A stretch of DNA of 20,732 nt from a virus. The DNA is taken from IMG/VR virus record IMGVR_UViG_3300033064_001266, positions 1-20,732 of that record; one strand, 5' to 3'. The notes beneath the pieces are model-generated. The model was not told where the DNA came from. It ran no database searches and was given only the letters and a program-made list of their open reading frames with translations. The translations under genes and the position numbers were made by a program. Below are positions 2,568-20,402 of this stretch, one piece after another. Position 1 is the first letter of the stretch; every line of letters starts with the position of its first letter.

Positions 2568-3206
2568 TCAAGCAAAGAATAGGACTAAAGCCCTTGTTGT
2601 TGGTTCTACTGCTGTGCGAGCCTGAGTATCGAAGTTAGAAATCGTAGATGCTGTCTGCGTTCCAGTATGGTTAGCGCGAGCAAGAGGATCAGTAGCCAAC
2701 TTAGAAAGCGCGATTGCAGCACTGGCACTAATGTCGGCGTTGACAACTGTTCCGTCAACTATTTTTGCTGAGGTTACTGAGTTATCCGTGGGGGTTCTTG
2801 TATCAGTTAGTCTTGTGTCTGATCCGTATACAACTTCGGTGGCCGAGGCGTTGCCAGTAGCAGGAATGTTTTTACTGGCGGCAGTTCCGGCATCTGAAAT
2901 CTTAGAAAGAGTTAGTGTCGGAACATCTGTAGCAGAAAGCGTAGTGCCGCTTGTTACCCGCCCCTTAGCATCGGTAGTTACTTTTGTGTAAGTTCCAGCA
3001 GTTCCAGCAGCAGCAAGAGTGGGATTTGGGTAAGTGCCTGTTAGATCTCCGCCTGCTGAGCCGCTTGGTGCGCGAGAATTTGAGAGACGAGAATCATTTC
3101 CTGCTGCCGCAGTAGTTGAAGTCGTGCCATACGAAACACTAAAAGTGTTGCCTGTTTTTACTAGGCCAGTTCCAGCTTTTACTGCTTTAGTGACTGACTT
3201 TGCCAT
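2568..3206 (-). CDS. Tail fibre protein with short-repeat stalk
   Basis: The protein has 212 residues. It contains motifs typical of phage fibre shafts: GGDLTGTYPNPTLAAAGTAG near residue 55, KVTTDAKGRVTSG near 75, a VVYGSDTRLTDTRTPTD block, and ANHTGTQTASTISNFDTQAR near the end. In known fibres the last block is followed by further stalk or a tip domain. Here the protein stops about 15 residues later with a hydrophobic tail, RALVLFFA. It is therefore either a short fibre stem carrying a separately encoded tip, or a truncated fibre. ATG overlaps the preceding stop by one base (TAATG). The next genes encode glycine-rich adhesins that could supply the tip (inference). Confidence 0.78.
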   Translation of the reverse strand: MAKSVTKAVKAGTGLVKTGNTFSVSYGTTSTTAAAGNDSRLSNSRAPSGSAGGDLTGTYPNPTLAAAGTAGTYTKVTTDAKGRVTSGTTLSATDVPTLTLSKISDAGTAASKNIPATGNASATEVVYGSDTRLTDTRTPTDNSVTSAKIVDGTVVNADISASAAIALSKLATDPLARANHTGTQTASTISNFDTQARTAVEPTTRALVLFFA

Positions 3207-3646
3207 TATGAGAGGTAGAGGAAGCTAACGCCTTCGCCATTTACAGTCGAGTCAATGTAAATTGTTGCTAAATTTGCGACATCAATAGCTAGAACATCGC
3301 TAGCGTCAAGCGGAACTCCTGTACGAGTAGCAAGAGAAGCAACTACGGTCGATCCTCCAACACAGATAACCCCTGTATTTCCTGAGAGTGCCGTAATAAA
3401 AACTTGGCGGGCTGGTGTTGAGGAAGTAACTAGCGCAACACGAGTTCCCGCAGTAGTTACTGTTTTCCTAGCGTCTGCCACGCCAGAAACCCCGTAAGTA
3501 ATAGGAAGAGGAGAAGATGTAGAGGCATCTGTGGCAGAGCCATCAGCGCCGTGAGAGATTTTTACTCTCTGATATTGAATGCCGCCAATGTCGTCTGCGG
3601 CAACAGAAACACCAGAACCGGCTGTGATCGAAACATTGTCGGAAAT
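3206..3646 (-). CDS. Beta-rich virion-associated protein, probable ATT start
   Basis: The protein has 146 residues if translation starts at ATT. It begins (M)SDNVSITAGSGVSVAADD followed by IGGIQYQRVKISHGADGS, an N-terminus closely like those of many small phage structural proteins that start with ATG. The rest is Ala/Val/Thr-rich beta structure ending GVSFLYLS. No in-frame ATG, GTG or TTG exists between the upstream in-frame TAA (3659-3661) and a GTG at 3481. That GTG would remove 55 well-conserved-looking residues and has no good ribosome site. A perfect AAGGAG lies 8 bases before the ATT. The stop overlaps the next ATG (TAATG). It is probably a fibre or decoration protein; the function is not established. 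Confidence 0.72.
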   Translation of the reverse strand: MSDNVSITAGSGVSVAADDIGGIQYQRVKISHGADGSATDASTSSPLPITYGVSGVADARKTVTTAGTRVALVTSSTPARQVFITALSGNTGVICVGGSTVVASLATRTGVPLDASDVLAIDVANLATIYIDSTVNGEGVSFLYLS

Positions 3647-3654
3647 TTTATTTA

Positions 3655-3660
3655 CTCCTT
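3655..3660 (-). promoter_or_regulatory. Strong Shine-Dalgarno that fixes an ATT start
   Basis: On the minus strand this is AAGGAG, followed by 8 A/T bases and then ATT at 3646-3644. It is among the best ribosome binding sites in the window. Together with the lack of any ATG, GTG or TTG nearby in that frame, it decides the start of the 146-residue protein. A TATAAG sequence (3666-3671, minus) inside the palindrome GCTTATAAGC could be a -10 box just upstream, but no convincing -35 accompanies it. Confidence 0.7.
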
Positions 3661-3680
3661 AAATGCTTATAAGCGACTTG

Positions 3681-3722
3681 CATAATAAAGAATACTACCA
3701 GCCAAGTAATTGACTTGGCTGG
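3681..3722 (-). terminator. Rho-independent terminator-like hairpin
   Basis: On the minus strand CCAGCCAAGT, loop CAATT, ACTTGGCTGG form a perfect 10-bp stem (3698-3722), followed by the T-rich but interrupted tract TAGTATTCTTTATTATG. It sits in a 92-base gap about 17 bases after the stop of the Ig-like protein gene and before the Shine-Dalgarno of the next gene. It probably ends or attenuates the head-region transcript before the fibre genes. The T tract is imperfect, so partial termination or an RNA-processing role is possible. Confidence 0.7.
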
Positions 3723-3738
3723 CAGATATTCAAGTTAA

Positions 3739-4422
3739 TTACGCTACTGACCAGTTGCCAGCATCGTCTAGAACAAACACCTTGACTACCTTCACGCCGT
3801 CACCGGCAGAAGCAGTCTCTAGATCGCGTCCGTCAATGACAGATGTGATTCCAGTGGTTGCTGCGTAGTTGAGATCAGTACCCGACATATTCGTTGAGAA
3901 CGTCTCACTGATGGTTGTTCCAGTGTTATGAAGGGCGTTTGAACTAGAAACGACCTTGATCTTGTACTCATCGAACTGAGTATCAGATTGCCAGATGAAA
4001 GTTACCGAACGCTTACCGGCAACCTTCGAGATACGGGAGACATCCGGCGCTGTCGTAATAGTGACAACTGGCGCTGTCGTATCGAGTGTGATGGAGTCAG
4101 ATAGCTGTGATGTCTCGTTGTAGACATCATCGCGGATCTTTCCGTAAAGAGTCTTGCTTCCATCACCAGACGAAAGCTTGACTGCTGTTGAACCGCTGTA
4201 GGCAATCCATGCAGAGTTAGCTTCTAGAGTCTGGATGTTAGCATTCTCGGCTGTATCAACTGCGCCCCAGATCTTAATCTGGTAGCCCGTTGTGCTTGCA
4301 TCTGCTGTAGTGAAATACGCTGTTACCGCACTGGTATTTGTAAATACATCACCATTATTAATGGCAAATGTACTGCCAGACGGTGCCAGCGTATCGAGGG
4401 TAATATTAAAATACGATGCCAT
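3739..4422 (-). CDS. Ig-like domain virion protein
   Basis: The protein has 227 residues from the ATG at 4422, beginning MASYFNITLDTLAPSGSTF. The start is set by GAGGAG 10 bases upstream; an ATG at 4431 would sit almost on top of that site. There are two Ig-like beta modules. The first contains TGYQIKIWGAVD and ends SQLSDSITLDTTAP. The second follows with VVTITTAPDVSRIS and TFIWQSDTQFDEYKIKVV, and ends VFVLDDAGNWSVA. Repeated 'DTTAP' joints and 'DDAGNWS' ends are typical of bacterial-type Ig-like domains on phage surfaces, where they bind host carbohydrates or decorate tails and heads. The position after the head genes suggests a virion surface protein (inference). A strong hairpin follows the stop. 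Confidence 0.75.
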   Translation of the reverse strand: MASYFNITLDTLAPSGSTFAINNGDVFTNTSAVTAYFTTADASTTGYQIKIWGAVDTAENANIQTLEANSAWIAYSGSTAVKLSSGDGSKTLYGKIRDDVYNETSQLSDSITLDTTAPVVTITTAPDVSRISKVAGKRSVTFIWQSDTQFDEYKIKVVSSSNALHNTGTTISETFSTNMSGTDLNYAATTGITSVIDGRDLETASAGDGVKVVKVFVLDDAGNWSVA

Positions 4423-4498
4423 TGGTGGCATTCTCCTCGTGGTTGTTGGCTGTTATTACTAATTAAATAGTAGTGCCAACTGAGGTGGCTAAGTGGCT

Positions 4499-4912: not shown

Positions 4913-5675
4913 CTTCGTCTTCTTCTTCAACAGACTCAATGAGGCCAGTAATAGGATCGCGCTTAACGATCTTCTTGCCGTTCTTAGGGGCTTGAACAGT
5001 TACATTAATTACTGGATTAGGAAGATTTGAAGCAATCTTCTGAGCCATCTCTGTGGGGTTTGTTTCGTATCCAGAATCTAGATCGTCCCAATCGTCCTCT
5101 GAAAAGTAGAGATCGTCGGCAACCCAGTTATCTGTCTCTGACATTTGAGCCTTTTTACTTGCCACCTGCGACATCACTTCCTCACCGAATTTCTTCTGGA
5201 AGAAGCCATCAATTTCTTCATCGCTATGCCCAATCGAGCGTAAGCGTAGAGAAACCTGCGCGATGGAATCAGAATCCATCGAGCGCAACAGGCGACGAAG
5301 ATAGCCACGCGGAGCAGAAACACGCAGCTTGCGGCGGCCACGCTTTAGCGGGCCTTGTGAGCGCAGATGATTGTCGAGTAGGTCGATCAGATCATTCTGG
5401 CGCTGCTCTAGTGTCAAGTCAAGGAACTTCTGAGTATCAACTTTGCTGGCATCTTTAGCTCGGCCAGCAACAAACTCTTTGATGTCTGCTTCTGATGGTG
5501 TGTCGTACTCGCGAGCAGCCTCACGAACAGCGTCCATCATTCTCATGTTTTCCGTCTTAGAAACATCGACGCTAATAGAATCAGCAACGGGGGCAACAGC
5601 TTCTGGTGCTTTTACTTTTTCTACTACCGGCGCTTCAGCCAGTCTTAAACCTTTTTCATCAAAGAAAATAGGCAT
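4902..5675 (-). CDS. Unknown protein directly downstream of portal
   Basis: I do not recognise a family. The protein has 257 residues. Residues 1-45 are Ala/Pro/Val-rich and probably flexible. Residues about 45-175 are mostly helical, with a basic patch GPLKRGRRKLRVSAPRGYLR near the middle. An acidic stretch DDLYFSEDDWDDLDSG follows, and the C-terminus is very acidic (ESVEEEDEDAL). A charged helical protein next to the portal might be a head completion, scaffolding-like or portal-associated factor, but it carries none of the motifs I would need to say so. ATG overlaps the portal stop by one base (TAATG at 5677-5673), suggesting coupled synthesis with the portal. Confidence 0.72.
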   Translation of the reverse strand: MPIFFDEKGLRLAEAPVVEKVKAPEAVAPVADSISVDVSKTENMRMMDAVREAAREYDTPSEADIKEFVAGRAKDASKVDTQKFLDLTLEQRQNDLIDLLDNHLRSQGPLKRGRRKLRVSAPRGYLRRLLRSMDSDSIAQVSLRLRSIGHSDEEIDGFFQKKFGEEVMSQVASKKAQMSETDNWVADDLYFSEDDWDDLDSGYETNPTEMAQKIASNLPNPVINVTVQAPKNGKKIVKRDPITGLIESVEEEDEDAL

Positions 5676-8044
5676 TATGCGATCTCGTCTAGAACCGACT
5701 TAATGATTTTCTTTTCTACTTCGCTGTCGATGCTGTCGCTGAGGCTCAGAGTCATTGTCTCATCATCCCACACGGCACCGCCAGCAACATCTTCGCTTCT
5801 ATCAATCTCAAAGTTAAAAGGCAAAGCCTTCCAAGAAATTAAACTGTCGGGGGCGATAGAGAATTCAGTTGCTTCTTCAATAGTAAAAATTGAGCCATCG
5901 TAATCAGCGCCTTCTTCAATTGCTACAACAAGATCTGACCCGTCAAAGACGGCACCAGATAAGATTGCTTTGTTGTAAGCGTCACGAACAAAAGAACGGA
6001 CAGCGCTGGCGCTTTTCCACTCTGGAAAATCTGCGAATTTGTCTCTTGCGTTGGCGGCAATCTTCTCTGTCTCTTGGACTCCATCTTGGATCTGTGACTG
6101 TACGAATGATTGCACCTCTTTCGAAATAGATTCTGCTCCTCGTGCTACGAGGCTTATAACGGTATCGGAATCTGCTAGGTAAATTCCTACAGAAATATCA
6201 ATGATAAGGTCAATAGCTAGAGCTAGATTTTCTGTTTCAACTAGAAGATTGGAAGGAATTTCTTCTACAGATTCTGCTTTCTCAATAGAATCAAAAACTG
6301 AATTGTATTCTCCCTTAAAGAAATCAGTAAGTGCTGCATTTAAATCACGCGCAGCAAACTTAACTCTTTTGTCTTCAAAGTGAACAGTGTTTGGCAAGCT
6401 GCCAAGGAAATTTGAATCTGAATCTGAGAGATAAACAACTTCTCTTGGCTGGATGTAAGAGAAACCATTTTGAGTTGGAACTGTCCCTACTTGCTCGCCA
6501 GCTACAGGTTCAACTTGGCCGACAGTAGAGTTCTGCTGCTGATTTACTAGCTCAGCATCACGGCGCTGCTGCTCAGCCCAAGAAACAACAGGCGTTCCGC
6601 GATCTTCAAGCACTTTCTGAAGATCGACAAGCTTAAGAATTTCCTTAGCGCCTGAATCCTGCTGACCAAGAAGTTGAACAAGCTGACGCATAAACTCTGT
6701 GTCTTCTTCAGCAAAACCTTGAACAACAATCTCAGCGTGGCCACCGGCCAAAGCAAACTCAGGGTAGTTAACAGCAATCCACTGCGGAATAATAAAACGG
6801 TTGATGCTGTCAGTAATACGCGAAGAAAGAACAGCTTGAGACTCAAGGAATGAGTTACCCATCTCTGCGGCTACGTTGCGCGAAGATGTTCCACCCTTGC
6901 CCTCAAGGAAAGCCTGCTCTGGGATAAAGAGCGAGCGGATCTTCTGAACGTCTAGGTACTCGAAGCTCTTATCGAACGGATCAAAGTTAACTGCGTCCTT
7001 AGTAAATTCAACTTCCCACTGGCGCAGAGTTCCTCGACCATTGGCATCTTCGTAAGGCTCTGATGGGAGGGCGATAACGCCTCCTGAGCGGATGCGCGAA
7101 CCCATTTCTAGGGCGTAGTCCTGATAAGAAGTCTCAGCGCCTGTAAGAGAATCTACGAAGTATCCCTCTGGATACCTGATGATTACTGATGGGTCAGCCT
7201 TGCGCTCAAAGGCGCGGTCTGCGATAGCCCAGCGGAACCAGTAGCTCCACCAATAGCGGTAGGCATAACCAAGGCGTGGGTAGCCGAAGATAGAACCGAA
7301 GGTTGCGTCCTTCTCATTTGTTACCCAAAGAGAATGGTCGAGATCAATTTTGTAAGAAGCTTCCTGATCAGATCCGCCTGCTCCGCCACCAGTGTCAGTA
7401 ATTCCTAGAGCGGTAGCCGCATCTGATGGCGTGTACTGAATCCCGTCAAACTCACCATTTTTATTCCACTGTGGCTCAACAGCTTCTGGGCGAAGCGCAA
7501 CAAATGGCTTCCAAGCAATTGGCTCAATACCGCCTTGGCTCCAGATTGGCTGCTCGCTTTGCTCGCCAGTTGTAGGATTAATCTCGATGTAAGTACCGGC
7601 TGGCTTGCGAAACTCAAAGCGCTTAGCGATAGCTTGGAAACCGAAGTCCAGCATATTTGTGTGCTGTAGAACAATGCCACCATAAACACGGCGAAGGTCA
7701 TAGTCCAAGTGAGCAGCGATCTGCGCGTTAGGGCCTTTGTCATCCTTTGCGTTAATAAACCACTTAGCACGAACGTGAGGGGTCTTAATAAAAGAGAGTC
7801 CGAACCCAAGCATTGGGTCACGGCGCATCTGCCTGAGCTTTGAGAGAGGAATTCTTTCTACTTCAAACGGGCTACCAAGCTGATCTGAGGCATCCTTCCA
7901 GTTGCCAAAAATAGTTTGGATTCTGCTTGAGGGAGCTACCTCTTTTTTGCTAATAGAAGCTCTTACTCTTGCTGCCTCTTCTGGCGTTACAGCGCCTTCG
8001 GCTAGGCCGTTTTTATTGTTTGAGCTTGATGGTGTATCAGTCAC
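5675..8044 (-). CDS. Portal protein with long C-terminal extension
   Basis: The portal forms the dodecameric channel at the capsid vertex through which DNA is packaged and ejected. The protein has 789 residues, starting at GTG (MTDTPSSS) with a GAGAGA site 5 bases upstream. The N-terminal 450 residues carry portal-like features seen in DUF935/Mu gp29-type portals: RRDPMLGFGLSFIKTPHVRA, LQHTNMLDFGFQAIAKRFEF, WVTNEKDATFGSIFGYPRL, YWWSYWFRWAIADRAFERKA, and KSFEYLDVQKIRSLFIPEQ with EGKGGTSSRNVAAE. It follows the large terminase by 10 bases, the usual order. About 250 residues after FSYIQPREVVYLSD exceed a typical portal. They include helices and a VRDAYNKAILSGAVFDGSD stretch that could be a degenerate head-morphogenesis (MuF-like) domain fused to the portal; that part is speculative. 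Confidence 0.85.
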   Translation of the reverse strand: MTDTPSSSNNKNGLAEGAVTPEEAARVRASISKKEVAPSSRIQTIFGNWKDASDQLGSPFEVERIPLSKLRQMRRDPMLGFGLSFIKTPHVRAKWFINAKDDKGPNAQIAAHLDYDLRRVYGGIVLQHTNMLDFGFQAIAKRFEFRKPAGTYIEINPTTGEQSEQPIWSQGGIEPIAWKPFVALRPEAVEPQWNKNGEFDGIQYTPSDAATALGITDTGGGAGGSDQEASYKIDLDHSLWVTNEKDATFGSIFGYPRLGYAYRYWWSYWFRWAIADRAFERKADPSVIIRYPEGYFVDSLTGAETSYQDYALEMGSRIRSGGVIALPSEPYEDANGRGTLRQWEVEFTKDAVNFDPFDKSFEYLDVQKIRSLFIPEQAFLEGKGGTSSRNVAAEMGNSFLESQAVLSSRITDSINRFIIPQWIAVNYPEFALAGGHAEIVVQGFAEEDTEFMRQLVQLLGQQDSGAKEILKLVDLQKVLEDRGTPVVSWAEQQRRDAELVNQQQNSTVGQVEPVAGEQVGTVPTQNGFSYIQPREVVYLSDSDSNFLGSLPNTVHFEDKRVKFAARDLNAALTDFFKGEYNSVFDSIEKAESVEEIPSNLLVETENLALAIDLIIDISVGIYLADSDTVISLVARGAESISKEVQSFVQSQIQDGVQETEKIAANARDKFADFPEWKSASAVRSFVRDAYNKAILSGAVFDGSDLVVAIEEGADYDGSIFTIEEATEFSIAPDSLISWKALPFNFEIDRSEDVAGGAVWDDETMTLSLSDSIDSEVEKKIIKSVLDEIA

Positions 8045-8054
8045 TTAAGTCTCT

Positions 8055-9863
8055 CTATCTATCAACGCGGGTAACTGGCTCTCCAAGCGACTTGCGCCAG
8101 TTGTCATATTTATCATTCTTATTACTGAATCCTACAGGACTATTAGGCTGTGTCTGACTAATTGTTGCTCTACGGGGTATAGTTCTAGATGCTGGCAAGT
8201 TACCTGTTGTACTTAAAGCACGGTTCTTGACCTTCTTAATGTTAGCTACTGCGTACCTAAAATTCGACATCGCGTGATTAAATTTGTCAATTTGGTTGCC
8301 AGACTTAGGATCAGCCCGCCACGCCTTGATTTCTCGGACAAACATTGGGCAAGCTTCGCCGTCTACAACGAAGAGATCGTCATCAAACATTGAGCGAATC
8401 GCTTTTGTGTGTTCATCGAACTCACGAGTAGCGTGCCAGCGGGTAGCTAAGCCCATAGCTTTCCAGTCCATTCTTGCTGCCTTACCCTGCGGATCAGCGA
8501 ATCTTTCATAGACACGGAAGCCGCCAGAAAACTTTTCTGCCCAGCGCTTCTCACGCTCTTGAACCAGTTTTCCTAGCTGCTCATTGCCAATCTCAGAAAT
8601 ATAAATCTCGCCAAAGCAAACCAGAGTTCCTTCTTTTAGGCGGCGAGTAATAATTTTATCTGTGGGCTGGTTCCAAGATTCAACTTCTACCTCGTAAGCA
8701 AGTAGCTGATACCAGTTGACAGCGTGTGGGTTTGTTCCGCCCCAGTCCACAGAAAGAAAAATAGGGCCGTTAGCTGGATCTGGCTCAAAGTTTCTAATGC
8801 AGTGTCGATCATCTCGCCAAGTTGGGACATAGTGATGACGCATTTCTGGCTTAGAACAAAGCTGCTGAACCTCAAAAGTTATTCGATCATTCTCTGTAAA
8901 TTGCTTAACGAGGTCAGAGAACGGCTGCCATCCACGACTCTTGTGGAAATCCCCATTACAAACATCGCGTAGAAGTCTTGGCGAACCGTCTTCCCACTCG
9001 CCCTTACGAATCTTGTCGCAGGTGCAGCGATGCTCTTCGGTTAATTCAGGGCAAGCGATCTGACAATTCTTCTGCTGGCTAGCTGTTTCCTTGATACACC
9101 AGATATAAAGTTTGCGAGGAGGCTTAAATCCTTCTGAGATAGCTTTCTCGATCTCGTCAATAAGAAGCTGAACACGACCTGATGGGCCTTTACGAGTTGA
9201 TGTTGCGATGTCCTGCGGGTTCATCAGGCGGCCATCTTTAATCTTTTTACTAATCGTCATGTTTCGAGACTCTTGCCAAGTGTCGTCGCGCATCAGTTCG
9301 ATCTCGTCTGCGTGAGCAATCTGTGGGTGCGGCCCGTTTACTGCTTCTGGTGTGGAGCCGAGAACCTCAATCTTGGAGCCGTTAGTAAAAACTGTTTCGC
9401 GCATAAGAGAGGAAACAATTTCAGGACGACGATTTCCTTTCTCGTCAAAGACCCAGTTCTTAAGGTGTGCGTAAGCGCGGAATGACTGAGCCTCAATAGC
9501 GCCGAAGGTGCAAGACTCAATGCCCGGCTTAAAACGAGCATTCAGCCAGTGAAGTACGGCAACCATAAAAGTCTTAGCCCCGCCACGATTAGCGACAGCC
9601 AGAGAAGCGTCTGAGCGTTCGAAGTAAAGGTCAGCAAGGAAGTTAAACGGAGCGCTGTGGCCTTCACAAACGGCCACACGCGGCACATCAATGCCAAGCT
9701 CATACTTCATCCATTCGTGAAGCTCATCGTCGTTCTGAGGCCCTTTTTCATTTAGCTGCTGCTCAAGCTCCTGCTGTGCTGCAAGCATTTCCTTAAGCTC
9801 GTCATCTGTCATCGAGCCTAGAAGAGCGATCATTTCTTCTTCGCTAGGAACCTTGTCAGTCAT
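8055..9863 (-). CDS. terL: Terminase large subunit
   Basis: This is the ATP-driven DNA packaging motor and headful/cos nuclease, which docks on the portal. From the ATG at 9863 it has 602 residues. The ATPase domain shows a Walker A-type loop ANRGGAKT at about 91-98 and a Walker B strand IAHADE at about 182-187. The nuclease domain begins near 368 with FLSVDWGG, whose Asp is a likely metal ligand, and continues with RFADPQGKAARMD. Between them lies a Cys-rich segment (Cys 256, 267, 271, 280, 282, 302) with CTCDKIRKGEWEDGSPR, a pattern I recall from related terminases and possibly zinc-binding. ATG overlaps the small-subunit candidate by 8 bases; a TTG at 9875 would add four residues. The portal gene follows. 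Confidence 0.92.
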   Translation of the reverse strand: MTDKVPSEEEMIALLGSMTDDELKEMLAAQQELEQQLNEKGPQNDDELHEWMKYELGIDVPRVAVCEGHSAPFNFLADLYFERSDASLAVANRGGAKTFMVAVLHWLNARFKPGIESCTFGAIEAQSFRAYAHLKNWVFDEKGNRRPEIVSSLMRETVFTNGSKIEVLGSTPEAVNGPHPQIAHADEIELMRDDTWQESRNMTISKKIKDGRLMNPQDIATSTRKGPSGRVQLLIDEIEKAISEGFKPPRKLYIWCIKETASQQKNCQIACPELTEEHRCTCDKIRKGEWEDGSPRLLRDVCNGDFHKSRGWQPFSDLVKQFTENDRITFEVQQLCSKPEMRHHYVPTWRDDRHCIRNFEPDPANGPIFLSVDWGGTNPHAVNWYQLLAYEVEVESWNQPTDKIITRRLKEGTLVCFGEIYISEIGNEQLGKLVQEREKRWAEKFSGGFRVYERFADPQGKAARMDWKAMGLATRWHATREFDEHTKAIRSMFDDDLFVVDGEACPMFVREIKAWRADPKSGNQIDKFNHAMSNFRYAVANIKKVKNRALSTTGNLPASRTIPRRATISQTQPNSPVGFSNKNDKYDNWRKSLGEPVTRVDR

Positions 9864-10326
9864 TGTTCTCTTCAACTACTTCAGCGTCAACAATGACCTG
9901 ATCTTCAATCTGTCTCCTGATAACGCTTGCTGTTGGGCCTGAAGTCAGCTTGCTAGATAGCATCTGAATAAGTTCTTCACGCGAATGCTTGGCTGCTTCG
10001 TGAGCTTCTTCTTGAAGCTCAAACCTGCCGTGCTGAACAGCGATGTCTACCCAAGCCTGTGCGCCTTTCAGCCTTATGCTTATTGGCTGAGACGGATCAA
10101 TCGCGTCTTTAAAAACTTCCACAATTTGTTTGGCAGATTTTTCTTCTTGAGCCGACTCCGCAACTCGCTTAGAAATTCGCTCACCCTTACGAGTCGCTCT
10201 GCCGCCCATAGCACCATATTTAGCTCCACCCATTTTACCATCTGCGTGGCGCTGTTTGGCTAATTCAGAAAGTTTTTGCCTAGACTCAGGTGAAAAGTTT
10301 CTTTTAGGCTTATTATTTTCGGTCAC
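9856..10326 (-). CDS. Probable terminase small subunit / DNA-binding protein
   Basis: The protein has 156 residues, starting at GTG. The basic N-terminus, KRNFSPESRQKLSELAKQRH then GKMGGAKYGAMGG, resembles a NUMOD3-type DNA-binding motif with glycine-rich turns. A helical centre follows (FKDAIDPSQPISIRLKGAQAW, then helices) and an acidic tail. The small terminase recognises the packaging site and stimulates the large subunit. Immediate overlap with the large terminase gene, size and the DNA-binding N-terminus all favour this role, but I see no decisive family signature. No Shine-Dalgarno precedes the GTG. A TAAACT -10-like box 6 bases upstream suggests a leaderless transcript. Confidence 0.65.
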   Translation of the reverse strand: MTENNKPKRNFSPESRQKLSELAKQRHADGKMGGAKYGAMGGRATRKGERISKRVAESAQEEKSAKQIVEVFKDAIDPSQPISIRLKGAQAWVDIAVQHGRFELQEEAHEAAKHSREELIQMLSSKLTSGPTASVIRRQIEDQVIVDAEVVEENND

Positions 10327-10332
10327 TAGAAA

Positions 10333-10338
10333 AGTTTA
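10333..10338 (-). promoter_or_regulatory. Possible -10 box for a leaderless packaging transcript
   Basis: The minus strand reads TAAACT, then six bases, then the GTG start at 10326. It fits the TAnnnT form of an actinobacterial -10 box with transcription beginning at or next to the start codon, and the gene has no ribosome binding site. The -35 region (TTTATG at 17-base spacing) is poor, so this is tentative. Confidence 0.35.
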
Positions 10339-10350
10339 CACGCTGGGATC

Positions 10351-10725
10351 TTATTCATAAAACTTGGGATAAAGTTCCCATAAAGCATTGTTGCCTTCAC
10401 GAGTTATAGCAGTATCTACAGTATGAAGTGGAATCTCTTCGATAATTCTAAGTCGGCCTTTTTTGTCAATCTCTTTGCCAGTCCTCCAGCGATGGACTGA
10501 GCGAGGACTTGTTTCAATAATTAAAGAAAATTCTTCGATTGAGTAAACCCTTAAGCGGTTTTCAATCCATTCTTGGAATGGCTCTATGGGAACTAAGTCC
10601 TGAGCGCAAGATCTTTTGTAAGTAGATTTTTCCACTTCGATAGTTCCTAAACCATTTTGTCTTCTTAATTCATCAGCGCTAAAACTATTTCGTTCTTTTA
10701 CTAAAGAAGAACTATCTTTTTTCAT
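10351..10725 (-). CDS. Helix-turn-helix DNA-binding protein
   Basis: The protein has 124 residues. A helix-turn-helix is visible at about 61-82: YSIEEFSLIIETSPRSVHRW, where 'ieefs..i.tS.rsVhRW' matches a positioning helix plus recognition helix. A further 'IPLHTVDTAI' helix and a C-terminal ALWELYPKFYE follow, an ending like those of HTH proteins I recall from actinobacteriophages. It is probably a transcriptional regulator or a small DNA-binding packaging/replication factor. The start has an excellent AAAGGAG 10 bases upstream. It overlaps the end of the RusA-like gene by 14 bases, so the two are co-expressed. The stop is followed by a 24-base gap before the packaging genes, where it might regulate (inference). 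Confidence 0.72.
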   Translation of the reverse strand: MKKDSSSLVKERNSFSADELRRQNGLGTIEVEKSTYKRSCAQDLVPIEPFQEWIENRLRVYSIEEFSLIIETSPRSVHRWRTGKEIDKKGRLRIIEEIPLHTVDTAITREGNNALWELYPKFYE

Positions 10726-11173
10726 TCGGGCAAAACTCCTTTATATTAATGACAGTTTTAGGCCACTCTCCCCAGTGGCGCACCATAATTACTTTTGCTA
10801 CTTGAACATCGTCTTTGTATGCGCGTGAATTTAAAGCATCCATTGCAAGCTTTAAAGCATTATCCATATCTGGTTTTTTATTTCTAGGTATTGGGTGTCG
10901 CAAGCCTTCTGTTGAAAGCTCGCCATTCTTTTTAAAGTGCGATTGCGGCCTCTGCACATAGAGGTCGAGGTTTAATTCCAGAGCTACATCAGGGAGCCTT
11001 TGCTCTCCTGCTTCTCTCCAAGCCTGTCTGATTTCTCTCTCTGCGAGAACAGTTGCCTTGGGGGTATAGACAGCACCAGTTTTAGTGCTGAACTTGGCTC
11101 TCCCCTTGCCTACGGGAGCGCCTTGGATTACTAAATCAATCTCTAGTGCGCGGTCAGTCATAAGACTAATCAC
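10712..11173 (-). CDS. RusA-like Holliday junction resolvase
   Basis: RusA nucleases cut four-way DNA junctions, resolving recombination and replication intermediates, often before packaging. The 153-residue protein has the family core: GAPVGKGRAKF near the N-terminus, YTPKAT, and KPDMDNALKLAMDALNSRAY followed by KDDVQV. Likely metal ligands are D102, D104 and D121/D122, and K108 matches the family lysine. Length is close to the usual 120-150. I chose the GTG at 11173 because AAGG lies 5 bases upstream; the ATG at 11161 would be 17 bases from that site. It lies 7 bases after the membrane protein gene and overlaps the HTH gene. The window also carries RecA and Cas4-like proteins, so a phage recombination pathway is apparent. 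Confidence 0.9.
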   Translation of the reverse strand: MISLMTDRALEIDLVIQGAPVGKGRAKFSTKTGAVYTPKATVLAEREIRQAWREAGEQRLPDVALELNLDLYVQRPQSHFKKNGELSTEGLRHPIPRNKKPDMDNALKLAMDALNSRAYKDDVQVAKVIMVRHWGEWPKTVINIKEFCPNEKR

Positions 11174-11180
11174 AAGCGCC

Positions 11181-11363
11181 TTAGATTAAATTCCAACTCC
11201 AATTGACTATTTCTACTAATAAGTGAATATAAATTGGTGCTGTTACAGCAAGGAATGCCAAGCTAATTGTTGCAGCGATAAATCCTGCTAGCGGTGAAGA
11301 TTGCTTTTTAGACACAGTGACCGGCTCCTCAATTTCTTGCTGGATATCAAAAATATTTGGCAT
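11181..11363 (-). CDS. Small single-span membrane protein
   Basis: The protein has 60 residues. Residues 1-26 are soluble and charged (MPNIFDIQQEIEEPVTVSKK). Residues about 27-55 form one hydrophobic helix with FIAATISLAFLAVTAPIYI, ending in aromatic residues VNWSWNLI. The predicted topology is a cytoplasmic N-terminus with the tail in or through the membrane. The start is well supported by GAGGG in front of ATG, overlapping the stop region of the preceding gene. The function is unknown. A holin-like role cannot be excluded, but there is no endolysin neighbour and only one membrane segment. It could equally anchor a replication or host-takeover complex. Confidence 0.7.
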   Translation of the reverse strand: MPNIFDIQQEIEEPVTVSKKQSSPLAGFIAATISLAFLAVTAPIYIHLLVEIVNWSWNLI

Positions 11364-11369
11364 CTACCC

Positions 11370-12548
11370 TCACCTATAGTTGGATTGACCAGACCGCTGC
11401 CATTCTTGTTGCCTCATAGTCTCGAAGCGACTGAGTGATTCTACCAGTTTGTAAAGGGAATCGCGCTCTCGTCTAGCGGAAGCTGTAAAAGCATCGTGCT
11501 TGTACTGGAGCCTGCGCCAGTTGAGAACATGAGGGTCTGCTTCTACTTCTTTTTCTAGAAGCGTGAGAGTCTTGTGCTTTCCCTTGTCGTCGTACTTGTC
11601 GATTGCTTTTAGAAGCTCGTTAGCAAGTTCATCTGCGGCGCGCTTACATTCAAGCGCTACGCGATCTTCTCGCAGCAAGACAAAGCTCTTGTGGTAGGCA
11701 AGAAGGGAGTAGTAGGAGTAAAGACGCTGAATCTCGCTGTCTGATGCCTTAGTCCAGTCCCAAGGAAGCTGCGGAACATCATCCTCTGGCGGGTCTGGAA
11801 CATGACGGCGATCCTTCGCTAGTTCGTCCTCGACCTTTTGAATGATCGAGTGGTAGACAGAGCTATCTACAGGAGGTCGGCTATCTTCGACAACCGGCGC
11901 GGCTTCAACTTCTGTGGGCCGATCTTCTTCGCTCGGTTCAATAGCTTCTGGCTCTGCAATAACTCCGGCATCGGATTCTTCTCGTTCTTCTCCAATGACC
12001 TGTTCTTCGGCTTCCTGCTGCGCCTCTTGCGGCTCTTGTATGGCAGAGGACTCTGTAGTGTTTTCTTCATTACCGTTCTTTCTTGCTAAACGCTCGTTGG
12101 TTTTAGCAACTTGGTTGAGAATAGTTGAGCGATTTTTATTCGCTGTCTCATATTCAAAAATAGAATCAAGAACAACTTTGGTGTCTTCGTCTTCGTCCTT
12201 GTACGAATCGCTAATCGCTTTAAGAACGTCTGCTACTGAAGTTGATGAGTAATCAGCCCAAGGCTCGTCTGTGTCAGTCTCAGCTTCTTCAACGGCTTCT
12301 GGCTCTTCCACAGCTTCTGGAAGATCACCGCCGTCAAAGTCATCGCTGGCAATCCTAAGAATAGATTCAACTTCAGGGCCACGGACTAGTTGATCCCAAG
12401 CGTCCATGGCTAGTTGATAAAGCTTCTGCGCTTCTTCGATTGCCTTATCGTCTTCTTCAGGAATAGGGCCTTCGTAGATCTCGGCAATCACTGCTTGGGC
12501 GATAATTGCTCTTGCTTTGTCTGGTGATATTTTTATTGTGTTTGTCAT
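11370..12548 (-). CDS. Acidic unknown protein with disordered centre
   Basis: I do not recognise the family. The protein has 392 residues. Residues 1-130 look helical and acidic (IISP-type start MTNTIKISPDKARAIIAQAV). Residues about 165-235 are low-complexity Glu/Pro/Ala (EEQVIGEEREESDAGVIAEP) and probably disordered. Residues about 240-392 form an aromatic helical domain with LPWDWTKASDSEIQRLYSYY and ECKRAADELANELLKAIDKY, ending in a basic coil MRQQEWQRSGQSNYR. The acidic linker could mimic DNA or tether two domains; this is only inference. No ribosome site precedes ATG, but a promoter lies so close that a leaderless mRNA is likely. It sits between a nuclease and a RusA gene, so a DNA-metabolism role is plausible. 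Confidence 0.72.
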   Translation of the reverse strand: MTNTIKISPDKARAIIAQAVIAEIYEGPIPEEDDKAIEEAQKLYQLAMDAWDQLVRGPEVESILRIASDDFDGGDLPEAVEEPEAVEEAETDTDEPWADYSSTSVADVLKAISDSYKDEDEDTKVVLDSIFEYETANKNRSTILNQVAKTNERLARKNGNEENTTESSAIQEPQEAQQEAEEQVIGEEREESDAGVIAEPEAIEPSEEDRPTEVEAAPVVEDSRPPVDSSVYHSIIQKVEDELAKDRRHVPDPPEDDVPQLPWDWTKASDSEIQRLYSYYSLLAYHKSFVLLREDRVALECKRAADELANELLKAIDKYDDKGKHKTLTLLEKEVEADPHVLNWRRLQYKHDAFTASARRERDSLYKLVESLSRFETMRQQEWQRSGQSNYR

Positions 12549-12557
12549 AATGATGTG

Positions 12558-12586
12558 ATCTTATCAACCTTTAGCCCATCGGTCAA
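12558..12586 (-). promoter_or_regulatory. Candidate promoter, near-leaderless
   Basis: On the minus strand TTGACC (12586-12581), a 17-base spacer and TAAGAT (12563-12558) match a housekeeping sigma promoter at 5/6 and 4/6 positions. Expected initiation about seven bases beyond the -10 falls at about 12551, two or three bases from the ATG at 12548. That gene lacks a Shine-Dalgarno, which agrees with leaderless translation. Confidence 0.5.
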
Positions 12587-12632
12587 GCACTCTTTTCCGC
12601 GACTCCGTGTAATCGTAGTCTTCTCGCACCAA
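12564..12632 (-). CDS. Possible 22-residue micro-ORF
   Basis: A TTG at 12632 (or GTG at 12629), with AGGG about six bases before the TTG, opens a frame reading MVREDYDYTESRKRVLDRWA then KG. It begins just after the nuclease stop codon region and fills most of the gap before the acidic protein. The peptide is highly charged and looks codon-like rather than random. However, the same bases hold the -35 and spacer of a promoter, so it may be leftover sequence. The function is unknown. Confidence 0.3.
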   Translation of the reverse strand: MVREDYDYTESRKRVLDRWAKG

Positions 12633-12633
12633 C

Positions 12634-13545
12634 TTAGCCCTGTTGATTCCAACTGAATCTAAGCTTGTCGATGCCCTGCTCAAAATCGAGCTTACAGGTT
12701 TTCTTGAAGTTGCACCATTGGCAAGGTTGGTAGCTCCAGCGCCAGCCCATCGGGTGCTTTTTAGACGGGTTATAGGAGACAAGTTCTCCATTGATAAACA
12801 TCTCTCGCCATTCCTTGAGCTGTTTAATTCCCATCTCAAAAAACTTTTCGTCGTAATCAACGCGGAACTCAGCAGTATCGGCTGGCCTATCGCGAGATAG
12901 ATAATAAATAAAACCGTGAGTAACAGGATCAAGCTCAGACCACAGGCCGCCGTTCTCTTGCTCGTGACGAATCAAGGCAAGCTGAACCTTTGTCTGGAAG
13001 ATGTGTCCTTCATCTGGCTTTCTAGCGCCGACCTTCATTTCGTCAATAGCAGACTGATACTTAGACTTGATCTCAATTGGTAGCGGTGCTGTGTAGCCCT
13101 CTGGAAGCAGCACACAGTCAACTGAGCCGGTAAGCCAAGCAGATGGATACTCAAACCCAGTCTGTACTTCTGCGTCAGGTGACGCGCTGATAAGGATTCC
13201 AGCCTTCTCAAAGGTAGATACAAGCTCGTACTCGACAGACTTACCAGCAGCCATTACTGTGCGCGAGCTCCGATTAAAAGGCTCTGCACTAGGAAGATCC
13301 ATCATCCCATACATCGCTTGACGCGGGCAAGCCATTGGATCGTCACCCGGAAACTGGGAAGCGTGAAAAGAAACATGCCAAGGATTGCCGTGTGGACTCT
13401 TGCCAGAGCCATCGCGCCAGATCTCTTCTTCAACCTTCTTGTAAGCAGCAATAGTCAGCGGCTCAATTGTCCGCTTGATCTGAAGTCGCGTAAGCATTTC
13501 TGCCCTACTTAATTTTTGCAGCCTTGTGACTGTCCTTGATCCCAT
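12634..13545 (-). CDS. Cas4/RecB-like Fe-S exonuclease
   Basis: This is a PD-(D/E)XK nuclease of the Cas4/AddB-like type, which resects DNA ends using a 4Fe-4S cluster. From the ATG at 13545 it has 303 residues. Cys73 (MACPRQAMYG) and the C-terminal trio Cys275, Cys278 and Cys284 (CQWCNFKKTC) form the expected cluster ligands. The catalytic site is visible as TGSVDCVLL (Asp143) and PIEIKSK (Glu158, Lys160). A following FQTKVQLAL helix matches the usual Gln-containing motif. AAAGGA lies six bases before ATG; the TTG at 13569 has no such support. No CRISPR array or cas1 is present, so it is a stand-alone phage nuclease. It probably works with the RecA-like and RusA-like proteins in recombination. 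Confidence 0.87.
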   Translation of the reverse strand: MGSRTVTRLQKLSRAEMLTRLQIKRTIEPLTIAAYKKVEEEIWRDGSGKSPHGNPWHVSFHASQFPGDDPMACPRQAMYGMMDLPSAEPFNRSSRTVMAAGKSVEYELVSTFEKAGILISASPDAEVQTGFEYPSAWLTGSVDCVLLPEGYTAPLPIEIKSKYQSAIDEMKVGARKPDEGHIFQTKVQLALIRHEQENGGLWSELDPVTHGFIYYLSRDRPADTAEFRVDYDEKFFEMGIKQLKEWREMFINGELVSYNPSKKHPMGWRWSYQPCQWCNFKKTCKLDFEQGIDKLRFSWNQQG

Positions 13546-13572
13546 TTTGATCCTTTCATTTTTTCTCAACTC

Positions 13573-13601
13573 ATAATTACATAAGATCCTACTAAAGTCA
13601 A
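13573..13601 (-). promoter_or_regulatory. Candidate promoter for nuclease and downstream genes
   Basis: The minus strand has TTGACT (13601-13596), a 17-base spacer and AATTAT (13578-13573), matching consensus at 5/6 and 4/6. It lies in the 70-base gap between the glycosyltransferase stop and the nuclease ATG, one of the few gaps in the window. A transcript starting near 13566 would carry a leader of about 20 bases with the AAAGGA site. Confidence 0.5.
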
Positions 13602-13615
13602 GAGCCTTGATAATT

Positions 13616-14521
13616 CTATGCTGGTTTTATAGCAATAGTTGAACTGATGCCGCAGCTTTCAGCGTGATTCCACCACAGAATAGTGTTTACGCTTTCTCCA
13701 CATTTCGGACACAAACAATCAAAAGCTTTGCCGTCCCTATCAACCATAAAAATCCCGCTGCCCTCAACCCAAGGGTGACGATCATTCAGCATTGGAACAT
13801 CGCGTGCATTGCGCTCTAATTGAAGAGCATTATTTATTGGGTGAGATAAGTGAAATCCTCGTGCTTTTCCGCACCACGAAATTGCAACACCCATAGCAAC
13901 TGCGCGGAGTCCAAGCTCGCCATCTTCGCAACGCCCGTGATGGATTTGATTCCAAAATCCACCGACTCTTTTAAATTCTTCGACAGGCCAAACCAGATTC
14001 CCAGAAAAGCAAGCCAAGCCAGAAGAAATGTCTCCAATGATTTCTTCTGTGGGATCATGCTCTTCAAATCCCGGCAGCCTGAAATCTGTTTTTACTGCTC
14101 TCGCGGCTCTAAAAAAATCTTCAAGATTAGATTCTGGCTTGACGCTATCTGGCAGCCACTCATATGGACATATCATAATTCGATTAGGCGATCCAGAAGA
14201 ATAAGCTTCCTGAATTTCCGCAAAAGTTTCTGGTGCCATCATCACATCGCTATCAACAAACCAAACGTGAGTTGTATCTGGCCAAAGACTTGACACTTCC
14301 CGCACTCCGATATTGCGCGGCTGCTCCATGCCGGGATAATGCTTGCCTGTGCGCACTACCACGCAGTTGCGTTCGCCATCTTGAAACTGAAGATCGCCAC
14401 CATCATCAACAATTAAAACTTTTTGAATTGTTGAAGTCTGTGCTTCTAAAGAATCGAGAACCATATGAAGATTCTTTTCCCTGCCGTGAAAGCAAGGAAT
14501 AACAACAGCAAAATTCAGCAT
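13616..14521 (-). CDS. GT-A family 2 glycosyltransferase with C-terminal zinc-finger-like motif
   Basis: It transfers a sugar from a nucleotide donor. The 301-residue protein begins MLNFAVVIPCFHGREKNLHM, the classic family 2 nucleotide-binding strand. It continues with LIVDDGGDL (39-41 Asp/Gly), WFVDSDVMM (Asp90-Ser-Asp92, the metal-binding DxD) and CEDGELGLRAVAMGV, whose Glu-Asp is the usual base motif. About 35 residues from the end there is CLCPKCGE and then HAESCG, a Cys/His set that may bind zinc and is not part of the core fold. ATG overlaps the preceding stop (TGATG), with GAGG upstream; a TTG three bases earlier is less likely. The acceptor is unknown: virion protein, DNA base or host surface are all possible. 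Confidence 0.85.
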   Translation of the reverse strand: MLNFAVVIPCFHGREKNLHMVLDSLEAQTSTIQKVLIVDDGGDLQFQDGERNCVVVRTGKHYPGMEQPRNIGVREVSSLWPDTTHVWFVDSDVMMAPETFAEIQEAYSSGSPNRIMICPYEWLPDSVKPESNLEDFFRAARAVKTDFRLPGFEEHDPTEEIIGDISSGLACFSGNLVWPVEEFKRVGGFWNQIHHGRCEDGELGLRAVAMGVAISWCGKARGFHLSHPINNALQLERNARDVPMLNDRHPWVEGSGIFMVDRDGKAFDCLCPKCGESVNTILWWNHAESCGISSTIAIKPA

Positions 14522-16198: not shown

Positions 16199-17212
16199 CT
16201 AGATCCTAGAAATCTCTAAAGCCTTTGCTCTTACTTCTTCTTGGAAGGTTAAATCTCCAGCAATAAAATTACGAAGGTTCTTCTCGCCCTGAAACTTCTG
16301 CTCGCCGTAGTAATACCAGCCGCCCTTCTGCTCCACAAGCCCGTAATAACGAGCAGCCTTAGAGATCTCAAACAGGCGATCAAACTCTAGGGTTTCAAGA
16401 TCAAGTCGCATAGTGGCAGTCCTAAATGGACGGCACACACGAGACTTCTGAACGCGGGCTTTAATCTCTACGCCGTCCGGCTCCACCTGCCCGCTAGCAC
16501 CCTTTGCTTGCGTAGCCTTTTCATCGAGATAGCCATCGGCATTACGAGATACCCAGCTTCCCTTCTTAAAGTGGACAGTCATTGAAGACTGGTGATCAAG
16601 GATGCGCCCGCCCGGAGCTTCCTCAGCGCCGGTACGGAAGTTGACACGCACTTGGTCAATCATAATTACGGTGTTTTCGTTGGGATCGAAGCGCTCGTTA
16701 AGCCTGCGGAAAGACTTGCCCCAAGCGCGAGCGGTAATGCCCGGTCGCCAGTCACGAACATCTGCCGTAAGCTCGTCCTCTGAAACTGCTGCCGTACAAG
16801 AGTCAACAACGTGAAGGTGGACAGCGCCAAAGAGGGCTTCCATCTTGTCTGTGATCTCTTCGATTGTCGTTCCTTCGACAACGATCAGTTCGTCAATGTT
16901 CACGCCAATCTTTTCTGCTGCAAACTTTGGGTCGTACTGCTTCTCGACGTTGTAATAAGCGCACTTAAGACCAAGCTTTTGAGCTTCACGGATAACGCTG
17001 AGAGTTGTCAGAGTCTTGGTAGATGAGTACCCGCCATAAAAACGTGACCAGCGCCCAAGAGGTAGCCCACCACCCATCGCTACATCTAGTTCTAGGCTTC
17101 CAGTAGATACTCTGGCCGCGCTCTCAAAGTCATTACCCATACGAATTGAGTTTTCGTACTTGCGATTAATCTTTGAAACAATCTCGTCATAATCACCTGT
17201 ATTAACTGGCAT
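16199..17212 (-). CDS. RecA/UvsX-like recombinase
   Basis: It forms ATP-dependent filaments on single-stranded DNA for strand exchange. From the ATG at 17212 it has 337 residues. RecA landmarks in order: STGSLELDVAMGGGLPLGRW at about 36-55, P-loop GGYSSTKT at about 60-67, CAYYNVEKQYDP with the catalytic Glu region, Walker B LHVVDSCTAAV, and VIMIDQVRVNF with GGRILDHQSSMTVHFKKGSW matching the DNA-binding and core end. The P-loop has Thr where bacterial RecA has Gly (GPESSGKT). T4 UvsX also lacks that Gly, so activity is still likely. The length is near that of RecA core proteins. The ATG overlaps the polymerase end by 11 bases; a TTG at 17233 would add seven residues. Confidence 0.88.
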   Translation of the reverse strand: MPVNTGDYDEIVSKINRKYENSIRMGNDFESAARVSTGSLELDVAMGGGLPLGRWSRFYGGYSSTKTLTTLSVIREAQKLGLKCAYYNVEKQYDPKFAAEKIGVNIDELIVVEGTTIEEITDKMEALFGAVHLHVVDSCTAAVSEDELTADVRDWRPGITARAWGKSFRRLNERFDPNENTVIMIDQVRVNFRTGAEEAPGGRILDHQSSMTVHFKKGSWVSRNADGYLDEKATQAKGASGQVEPDGVEIKARVQKSRVCRPFRTATMRLDLETLEFDRLFEISKAARYYGLVEQKGGWYYYGEQKFQGEKNLRNFIAGDLTFQEEVRAKALEISRI

Positions 17213-20200
17213 TGGTTTCCATTTCTTTAGCAAATTTTTCGATTGTCGCTGCGTGTTCGCAGACTACGCTGACAGATCCTTTCCAAGAGTCAGTCTTGCC
17301 AGTAACCATAATGGTTTGTCCCTCTACGAGCAAGTCTCCGTACATCGCCAATGACTCTTTCCAGAACCTGACGCGCCACTCGTTCATTCCGTAGGCGATG
17401 ATAGCCGTAGCGAATGGACTCCCGCCCTTAGTCAACTTACGATCAAATTTAATTATCTCGCCACCGATAATTACACTTCCAGTTTCATTCTCAGCTACTT
17501 CTTCTTGAGTAAAAATATTGGCTTCTATTAAGTCTGAATACTTCTGCACATCAGCAGCAACAGTAAGGCTCATGCTAAGACGGTCGCGCTCCCAGAGTGA
17601 GATTTCATTTTGCGTAGCGTCATCTCGCCCGCCGCAGAAGTCAAAAGCTCCTGCTTCTTGGAGGGCAACGAGAGCGGAGTTATTAATAGAACGCGGAGCG
17701 ATTCTATTACGGAAGTTCTCCATAGATTCATAGATGCCCTTCTCGCGATTAGCAATAATCGACTTGGCACCCACTTCTCCTACACCCTTAATAGAAAGCA
17801 GGCCGACTCGGATACCGGCATCGTCAACAGTCCAGCCAACGCTAGAGCGGTTTACGCAAGGCGGGTCAATGCTTACTCCCCGCAGGCGAGCCTCACGAAT
17901 AACTTGACTGACAAACTGCTGCTTCTCCTGCGGCTTAGATCCTGATGGGTAAGTCAGGATTGCTGCGTAGAACTCAAGCGGGTACTTAGTTTTCAGCCAC
18001 ATATCTTGGTAAGCCTGCAAAGCGTATGACGCAGCGTGTGACTTATTAAAGCCGTAGTGTCCGAACTCCAGAATCTTGTGCCATATTTCATCGGCTGACT
18101 TACGATCAATGCCGCGCTCGATGCAGCCAGCGAACCACTTTTCCTCAAAGCGCTTCATAAAGATTTTTGCCTTAGAGCCGCCCTTGATCCTGTAGAGCTT
18201 GCCCATTGCCTTGCGCAGATCATCAGCTTCTGCGCCAGAGAAGCCGCCAACAACCTTTGAGATCTCCATTACCTGTTCCTGATAGGTAACGAGGCCATAG
18301 GTTTCTTCTAGAACAGGCTTAATGCTGTCGTGCCAGTAATCAACGAGGGAGTTATCGCGCTTGCGCTTGGCGTAATCCCAAGTAACGCCACCCTTCATCG
18401 GACCGGGACGGTAGAGAGCGTTAGCTGCTGCCAAGTCGAAAGCAACATCGGGCTTGATTTCTTTTAGAAGGGTGGTGATGCCACGACTACCGAACTGGAA
18501 GATGCCAATCGTGTAGCCATTCATAAAGCCTTCCATAACGTCCTTCTCTACGTCATAAGGGTCACTAAGAGGGCCAAGCTCGTAAAGATCAACCTCTACG
18601 CCGTAGCGAGCCTTTATGAGGTCACAGGCGTATGCGTGACGGTCTAGGCCAACGATGCCTAGAGCATCAATCTTTAGAAAGCCATAATCAGAGACAACAG
18701 GGAAGTCTGCCGCGTCTGACCAAGAGGTAACGAGATCGCCCTGCTTGCCTCGCTCAAGAGCCATGTATTCGACAACTGGCCTCGGAGTAATAATAATTCC
18801 GGCAGCGTGCTTGCCAGCATTTTTTACTGAACCCTCAATGCGCAGAGCGTGCTGCCAGATATCGGGGTGCTTTTGCTTAAAGTCTTTTAACTTGTCGTTA
18901 GTAGGAAGAATCTCTTCAAGAGTCGTTTCCTCATCGTCTTGGCGAATCTCAATCGTGTCTGTTACAGCGTGGGCTTCGTCGTAAGGAACGTCGTAGACGC
19001 GGCACAAGTCTTGAATCGCTGACTTAGGCTGAAAGCGCGAGTGAGTGATGATGTCTGCAACGTGGTCAGCACCATACTTGCGGGCGATGTAGGCTTTTAC
19101 TTCTCCCCTTCGCTCGCTCTGGAAGTCAAGGTCGATGTCTGGCAATCCTTTGCGCTCTGGATTCAAGAAGCGCTCAAACAAAAGACCCCAAGAGATCGGG
19201 TCAATGGCAACAATTCCGACAAGATAAGAAATAAGACAACCGGCAGCAGACCCACGGCCAAGCCCAACACGGATTTTCTGACTCTTAGCCCACCGAACAA
19301 CATCGCCTACGAGAACAAAATAATCAATAACCCCCTTGCTGGCGAGAATCTCCCATTCCATTTCGATTCGCTCGTAATAAGTTTCTTTAGGCCATTTCTC
19401 CCAGTGACTGTCAGGGTAATTGGCAAACATTTTTTCTAAGCCATCGTCAATCCACTCGCGCAGAATTTGCTCTGGCGTTTGGTCGTCATCTACAACCTTC
19501 GGCAGCTTAGGAGATTTATCTAGTAAAAACGGAGTGGATCGCCGGACAAATACTTCTGTGTTAGCAATTGATTCTTCAACAACAGAGTCTGAAATGCCCG
19601 GATGATTCTCTTTAAACCACTCCAACATTTCTTCTTCGGAGCATAAGTACAAAGTTGGATTAAGCTCGGCTAGGTACGAGTCTTTGCCACTCTCTTTATC
19701 TTTCTGAACCTTTGAGAAAGAAGTAGAAGCTCCGCACATCTTCGCGATCTTGTGCGTCTCAGCCCATTCCTTGTAAGGGAAGTGAGCGTCGTTCGTGGCG
19801 ATGATTCCAATGCCTCTTTCCTGACCAATTTTGATAAGTTCAGTATTCAGTGTGCGCTGCTCATCAAAACCGTGCGGCATTATCTCTAGCCAAAAATCTT
19901 CGCCAAAAATAGAAGTCATCTTGTCGATGTATTCACGGGCTGCTACAGAATCTCCCCCGCTAATAAGCTCGTTGAGCCAAGACGATACGCAAGCAGAAGA
20001 GCAAGCAAGACCTTCTGAGTAAAGCTCTAGAAGCTCGTAGTCAACGCACGGGTATTGGTAGAAGCCCCCGCCATCGTCAATCTCACCATAAGCAGAGCTA
20101 ACGATACGAAGCAGGTTGTGCCAGCCCCGCAGGTTCTTCGCGTAAAGGCACAGGTGCCAAGCCTTCCTGCTCTCTTTATTAGAGCGATCTGGCCTGAAAT

Positions 20201-20402
20201 AAGCCTCTACGCCAGAGATAGGAAGCACCCCTGCTAGACGGCAAGCCTCGATGTGTTCTAGCGCGCCGGAAAGAGTTCCGTGATCTGTCTGCGCTAGAGC
20301 AAATTGACCCATCTCGGCGGCTCTGTCGGCGTAGTTCTTTGCCGACCCTAAGCCATCGAGTCTTGAGTATTGGCTATGTCTGTGGAGGTGTACGAATGAC
20401 AA
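17202..20402 (-). CDS. dnaE: DNA polymerase III alpha subunit (DnaE-type) with PHP domain
   Basis: The phage carries its own C-family replicative polymerase. The protein has 1066 residues. The PHP domain (1-210) shows HLHRHSQYS, AQTDHGTLSGALE, GVEAYF, WHLCLYAKN and IATNDAHFPY. The polymerase core has GRGSAAG at 382-388, PDIDLDFQ with D422 and D424, LKIDALGI with D579 as third Asp, ALYRPGPMKGG, VTYQEQVMEISKVVGGFSGA and FGHYGFNKSHAASYALQAYQ. A helix-hairpin-helix region (LLSIKGVGEVGAKSI) and C-terminal OB fold (VIIGGEIIKFDRK) follow. The start is TTG at 20402, the only candidate after the in-frame stop of the previous gene; the N-terminus then matches the family exactly, although no Shine-Dalgarno is visible. 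It is slightly shorter than E. coli DnaE. Confidence 0.95.
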   Translation of the reverse strand: MSFVHLHRHSQYSRLDGLGSAKNYADRAAEMGQFALAQTDHGTLSGALEHIEACRLAGVLPISGVEAYFRPDRSNKESRKAWHLCLYAKNLRGWHNLLRIVSSAYGEIDDGGGFYQYPCVDYELLELYSEGLACSSACVSSWLNELISGGDSVAAREYIDKMTSIFGEDFWLEIMPHGFDEQRTLNTELIKIGQERGIGIIATNDAHFPYKEWAETHKIAKMCGASTSFSKVQKDKESGKDSYLAELNPTLYLCSEEEMLEWFKENHPGISDSVVEESIANTEVFVRRSTPFLLDKSPKLPKVVDDDQTPEQILREWIDDGLEKMFANYPDSHWEKWPKETYYERIEMEWEILASKGVIDYFVLVGDVVRWAKSQKIRVGLGRGSAAGCLISYLVGIVAIDPISWGLLFERFLNPERKGLPDIDLDFQSERRGEVKAYIARKYGADHVADIITHSRFQPKSAIQDLCRVYDVPYDEAHAVTDTIEIRQDDEETTLEEILPTNDKLKDFKQKHPDIWQHALRIEGSVKNAGKHAAGIIITPRPVVEYMALERGKQGDLVTSWSDAADFPVVSDYGFLKIDALGIVGLDRHAYACDLIKARYGVEVDLYELGPLSDPYDVEKDVMEGFMNGYTIGIFQFGSRGITTLLKEIKPDVAFDLAAANALYRPGPMKGGVTWDYAKRKRDNSLVDYWHDSIKPVLEETYGLVTYQEQVMEISKVVGGFSGAEADDLRKAMGKLYRIKGGSKAKIFMKRFEEKWFAGCIERGIDRKSADEIWHKILEFGHYGFNKSHAASYALQAYQDMWLKTKYPLEFYAAILTYPSGSKPQEKQQFVSQVIREARLRGVSIDPPCVNRSSVGWTVDDAGIRVGLLSIKGVGEVGAKSIIANREKGIYESMENFRNRIAPRSINNSALVALQEAGAFDFCGGRDDATQNEISLWERDRLSMSLTVAADVQKYSDLIEANIFTQEEVAENETGSVIIGGEIIKFDRKLTKGGSPFATAIIAYGMNEWRVRFWKESLAMYGDLLVEGQTIMVTGKTDSWKGSVSVVCEHAATIEKFAKEMETNAS

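Follow-up and report, generated by a model that had tools for sequence, protein, structure and literature searches.

An ATT codon at the predicted initiator position of a putative phage tail gene, private to a single viral record

Comparison of a 20,732-nucleotide stretch of viral DNA (IMG/VR record IMGVR_UViG_3300033064_001266, positions 1 to 20,732, referred to here as the window) with related phage sequences indicates that an ATT codon on its minus strand stands at the initiator position of a conserved protein family, and that this ATT is private to one record. We slightly favour the interpretation that the codon is a real, working AUU start at position 3646, backed by a strong Shine-Dalgarno (SD) sequence, and give it about an even chance as a judgement and not as a computed value. 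Its closest competitor, which we regard as somewhat less probable, is that the T at 3644 arose as an error in the consensus, or belongs to a rare damaged variant that the assembly picked up, and that the population uses ATG.

At the site, AAGGAG (3660-3655, minus strand) is followed by a spacer of eight bases, TAAATAAA (3654-3647), and by ATT (3646-3644). The frame, which opens SDNVSITAGSGVSVAADDIGG, continues after ATT with TCC GAC AAT GTT TCG ATC ACA GCC (SDNVSITA) and comprises 146 codons including ATT, ending at TAA 3208-3206 (gene 3206..3646, minus strand). The upstream in-frame stop, TAA 3661-3659, lies four codons ahead of ATT and overlaps the full SD, TAAGGAG (3655..3661), and the first in-frame ATG, GTG or TTG is the GTG at 3481-3479, 55 codons downstream of ATT. 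A sequence-only reading of the window had reported AAGGAG, the 8-base spacer, ATT, the stop four codons before it and the lack of ATG, GTG or TTG for 55 codons; all of these, with their letters and coordinates, were reproduced, and the strand, which it left unstated, is minus. Translation from ATT would give the N-terminus (M)SDNVSITAGSGVSVAADDIGGIQYQR. The minus strand of the window contains AAGGAG three times and the plus strand not at all, and the chance of finding it at a spacer of 5-10 bases is ~0.0009 per random position. Judged from the alignments, homology is stronger evidence than this chance figure that the position of the ATT codon is non-random.

The nearest relative (IMGVR_UViG_3300034073_002471; loci L013, L033, L049 and L078) is syntenic and 82% identical over the full protein, and it reads ATG GCC GAT AAC at the position aligned with ATT. 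Two other full-length relatives (L050 and L051, 59% identical) read TAAGGAG-AAACG-ATG. Across the fetched loci, ATG directly precedes the M[A/S/T]DN block in 115 of 115 distinct start sites, a set gathered by an ATG pattern, so that the sites are ATG by construction and the count signifies at least 115 relatives. Less biased support comes from protein and alignment searches, the latter permitting either I or M as the first residue, and from a scan for ATT, ATC or ATA starts. The alignment-based loci have ATG everywhere apart from one GTG (L010), and the relatives align gap-free with their ATG falling on the ATT codon (3644..3646). In 2.9 million viral contigs, the module with an ATT, ATC or ATA start gave 16 pattern matches, none of them in the family; these lie in short frames or in other proteins, and were put down to chance and rejected. 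The same collection holds at least 120 matches of the module with ATG. An exact-context pattern scan, which may omit very near records, found no second record of the same phage.

A conserved ATT start was thus rejected, the collected relatives having ATG or, once, GTG. The alignment bears out the earlier placement of ATT at a start position, and the caution that a single base may have changed is upheld by relatives both close and distant. The suggestion of an established, regulated ATT start fared worse: the codon is private to this record, the comparisons made do not separate an AUU start from a G-to-T error or minority variant, and the proposed comparison with relatives returned ATG at the position, which speaks against a conserved ATT start.

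The first 48 residues of the protein correspond to a widespread phage N-terminal module, M[A/S]DNVxITxGSG...DDIGG, whose block lies at the extreme N-terminus with residue 1 encoded by ATT instead of ATG. The module (approximately residues 1-48) is followed by a predicted beta-rich C-terminal domain (approximately residues 55-146), and it heads many phage proteins whose C-terminal domains differ. For example, Pam2_65 of Pseudanabaena phage Pam2 and EVB93_337 of Rhizobium phage RHph_TM30, both annotated as 'hypothetical protein', share a homologous N-terminus with the ATT gene but have ATG at the aligned residue and different C-terminal domains. Codons 2-55 are constrained as coding sequence in comparison with the nearest relative (dN 0.13, dS 0.54). 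In the same comparison pS is 0.38 in codons 2-55 (window 3482-3643, minus strand) and 0.76 in codons 56-146; the much smaller synonymous divergence of the first segment suggests that phages have exchanged the N-terminal module recently.

A start at the in-frame GTG at 3481, named as an alternative in the sequence-only reading, would yield a protein of 91 residues that lacks the N-terminal module. Although this is the first canonical in-frame start, and the C-terminal domain alone matches stand-alone proteins in two loci (L002 and L004), the nearest relative has GTC at this codon, no good SD precedes the GTG, and upstream of it, in the same frame, lies the conserved module, which has an SD of its own. 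The GTG start, not being conserved and removing the whole conserved N-terminal module, was rejected, and we consider it extremely improbable.

The structure model of the protein is of low confidence (pLDDT 64), with the C-terminal part predicted to be beta-rich. Its predicted fold has no PDB match at E <= 0.001, the best fold matches in BFVD are uncharacterised viral proteins only, and the protein itself has no Pfam or PHROG match. The ATT gene lies in a minus-strand run of late genes after the terminase and portal (Pfam Portal_Mu) and among tail-like genes. Pam2_65 likewise neighbours genes for a distal tail protein and a minor tail subunit. From these neighbours, the product of the ATT gene is a putative small tail or virion protein of an uncultured tailed phage. 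The neighbours and the N-terminal module agree with the initial description of a structural gene with a typical phage N-terminus. The upstream gene (3739..4431, minus strand) belongs to phrog_10898, of unknown function, and is syntenic in the nearest relative; the phrog_10898 family (loci L033-L047) is widespread in phage contigs, and the gene that comes after it varies between phages. In L084/L085 (locus 9001-13884), several pieces separated by gaps of ~1 kb make up the terminase homologue, a pattern expected of introns or homing elements.

An erroneous or minority base at 3644 would accord with ATG in all 115 collected relatives and with the absence of an ATT, ATC or ATA member of the family from the viral collection; ATT and ATG differ by a single base (G to T), and the source is a single uncultured IMG/VR contig. 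A switch from AUG to AUU has been found to be extremely rare, with one case among 61,358 reconstructed ancestral AUG starts (PMC5622118), a rarity that counts against an AUU start and at which even a low error rate competes. The window shows no further sign of error, however: homologous genes are unbroken, and start codons match those of relatives, among them the TTG of the DNA polymerase (17202-20402, minus strand) and the GTG of the portal (5675-8044, minus strand), both common to relatives. Because the genes with relatives are intact and the unusual starts agree with those of relatives, the contig looks sound. The SD, moreover, is unusually strong, which is easier to reconcile with a real weak start than with chance.

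This SD, TAAGGAG, is 7 nt long with a spacer of 8, a strength found in 5 of the 115 family start sites, and an SD of at least 6 nt precedes two of the 23 other genes of the phage. Because it is unusually strong for both the family and the phage, ATT is favoured as a real weak start. It has been demonstrated that mapped AUU and AUA starts in Staphylococcus aureus have strong or extended SDs and ~10% of AUG expression (PMC13009471). With the start position in a conserved family, the SD with its spacing and the stop/start overlap all present, we infer that the phage itself carries this base and that initiation occurs at ATT and is weak. The SD, eight bases upstream, would place the 30S subunit at the ATT at 3646, where initiator tRNA would read AUU with a third-position mismatch, and the product, fMet-SDNVSI..., would be made at a fraction of AUG efficiency. 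Counting against the AUU start are the confinement of ATT to one metagenomic record and a weak hairpin predicted at the start that pairs most of the SD. This hairpin does not rise above shuffled sequences (z -1.4), and a regulatory RNA fold at the start was rejected as not significant, 19 of 200 shuffles folding as well. No Rfam family was found in the window.

A 13-pair hairpin with a T-rich tail, terminator-like in form, lies between the upstream gene and the ATT gene (3695..3725, minus strand) and is also present in the nearest relative. Between this shared hairpin and the ATT gene, the window has 38 extra bases compared with that relative, and the extra stretch carries both the SD and a candidate 11-codon upstream frame, ATG...TAA (MQVAYKHLRSK; 3648..3683, minus strand), which is one frame off and ends one base before ATT. 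No source of the stretch was found beyond chance matches in the window or the fetched loci. The stretch also contains a perfect 10-base palindrome, GCTTATAAGC, at 3665-3674, which occurs once in the window.

A very unlikely history for this arrangement is that ATT never was ATG, and that an insertion of 37-38 bases separated the old ATG, now at 3683, from codon 2, leaving expression to re-initiation at ATT, to a +1 shift at AAA-TAA, or poor. Consistent with such an insertion, the ATG of the nearest relative directly follows the same hairpin and the window has an ATG at nearly the same place, followed by the extra stretch, with the 11-codon frame ending at 3648 where it adjoins the SD and ATT. 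The alignment gap, however, fits equally well before the ATG, an extended N-terminus occurs in no relative, neither the window nor the fetched loci supply a source for the extra stretch, and short ATG frames 5' of a gene are common by chance. Because the more distant L050 has TAAGGAG-AAACG-ATG, it is also suggested that the SD is ancestral and was lost in the nearest relative. Re-initiation from the 11-codon frame at ATT may in principle take place, and an SD eases re-initiation in Escherichia coli (PMC2268962).

The downstream gene (2568..3206, minus strand), which resembles minor-tail and tail-fibre PHROGs, has an ATG that begins within the stop of the ATT gene (TAATG), an overlap also found in the nearest relative and in L050, and it is without an SD of its own in the window. 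It is likely to be translationally coupled to the ATT gene. Because of the TAATG overlap and the lack of its own SD, a weak start at ATT would probably reduce expression of this tail-like gene as well, and through the overlap both genes could be held down. That AUU and the strong SD, maybe with re-initiation from the 11-codon frame, serve to keep the tail protein and its TAATG neighbour low in an IF3-dependent manner is an unlikely extension of the weak AUU start.

Among known near-cognate starts, infC, which encodes IF3, begins with AUU in E. coli, AUA in S. aureus and ATC in Streptomyces (PMC5472188, PMC13009471) and resembles the ATT gene in its third-base mismatch and SD-directed start, but it encodes a host factor and is autoregulated by IF3, whereas the ATT gene is a phage structural gene without a known link to IF3. 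The staphylococcal gene cvfC1 likewise has its AUU behind a strong SD (PMC13009471); its start and SD are conserved among Staphylococci and mapped by ribosome profiling, whereas the start of the ATT gene is private and known from its sequence alone. Of the traits expected of genuine AUU-initiated genes of the infC and cvfC1 kind, the ATT gene has a strong SD, a workable spacing and no nearby in-frame canonical start; conservation of the non-canonical start among close relatives, also expected of this kind, is not seen here, L033 and L049 having ATG. No phage example of an AUU or ATT start was found in the literature searched.

Gene callers limited to ATG, GTG and TTG would lose the N-terminal 55 residues of the gene. 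If the base is an error, the site is an ordinary one-base artefact, exposed by homology. If the base is real, the gene joins the known AUU starts with a strong SD and calls for no new mechanism; it would enlarge the small set of documented AUU starts by one in a phage structural gene, and together with the 82% identical relative would provide a natural ATG/ATT pair for gauging the effect of a near-cognate start on tail protein dosage.
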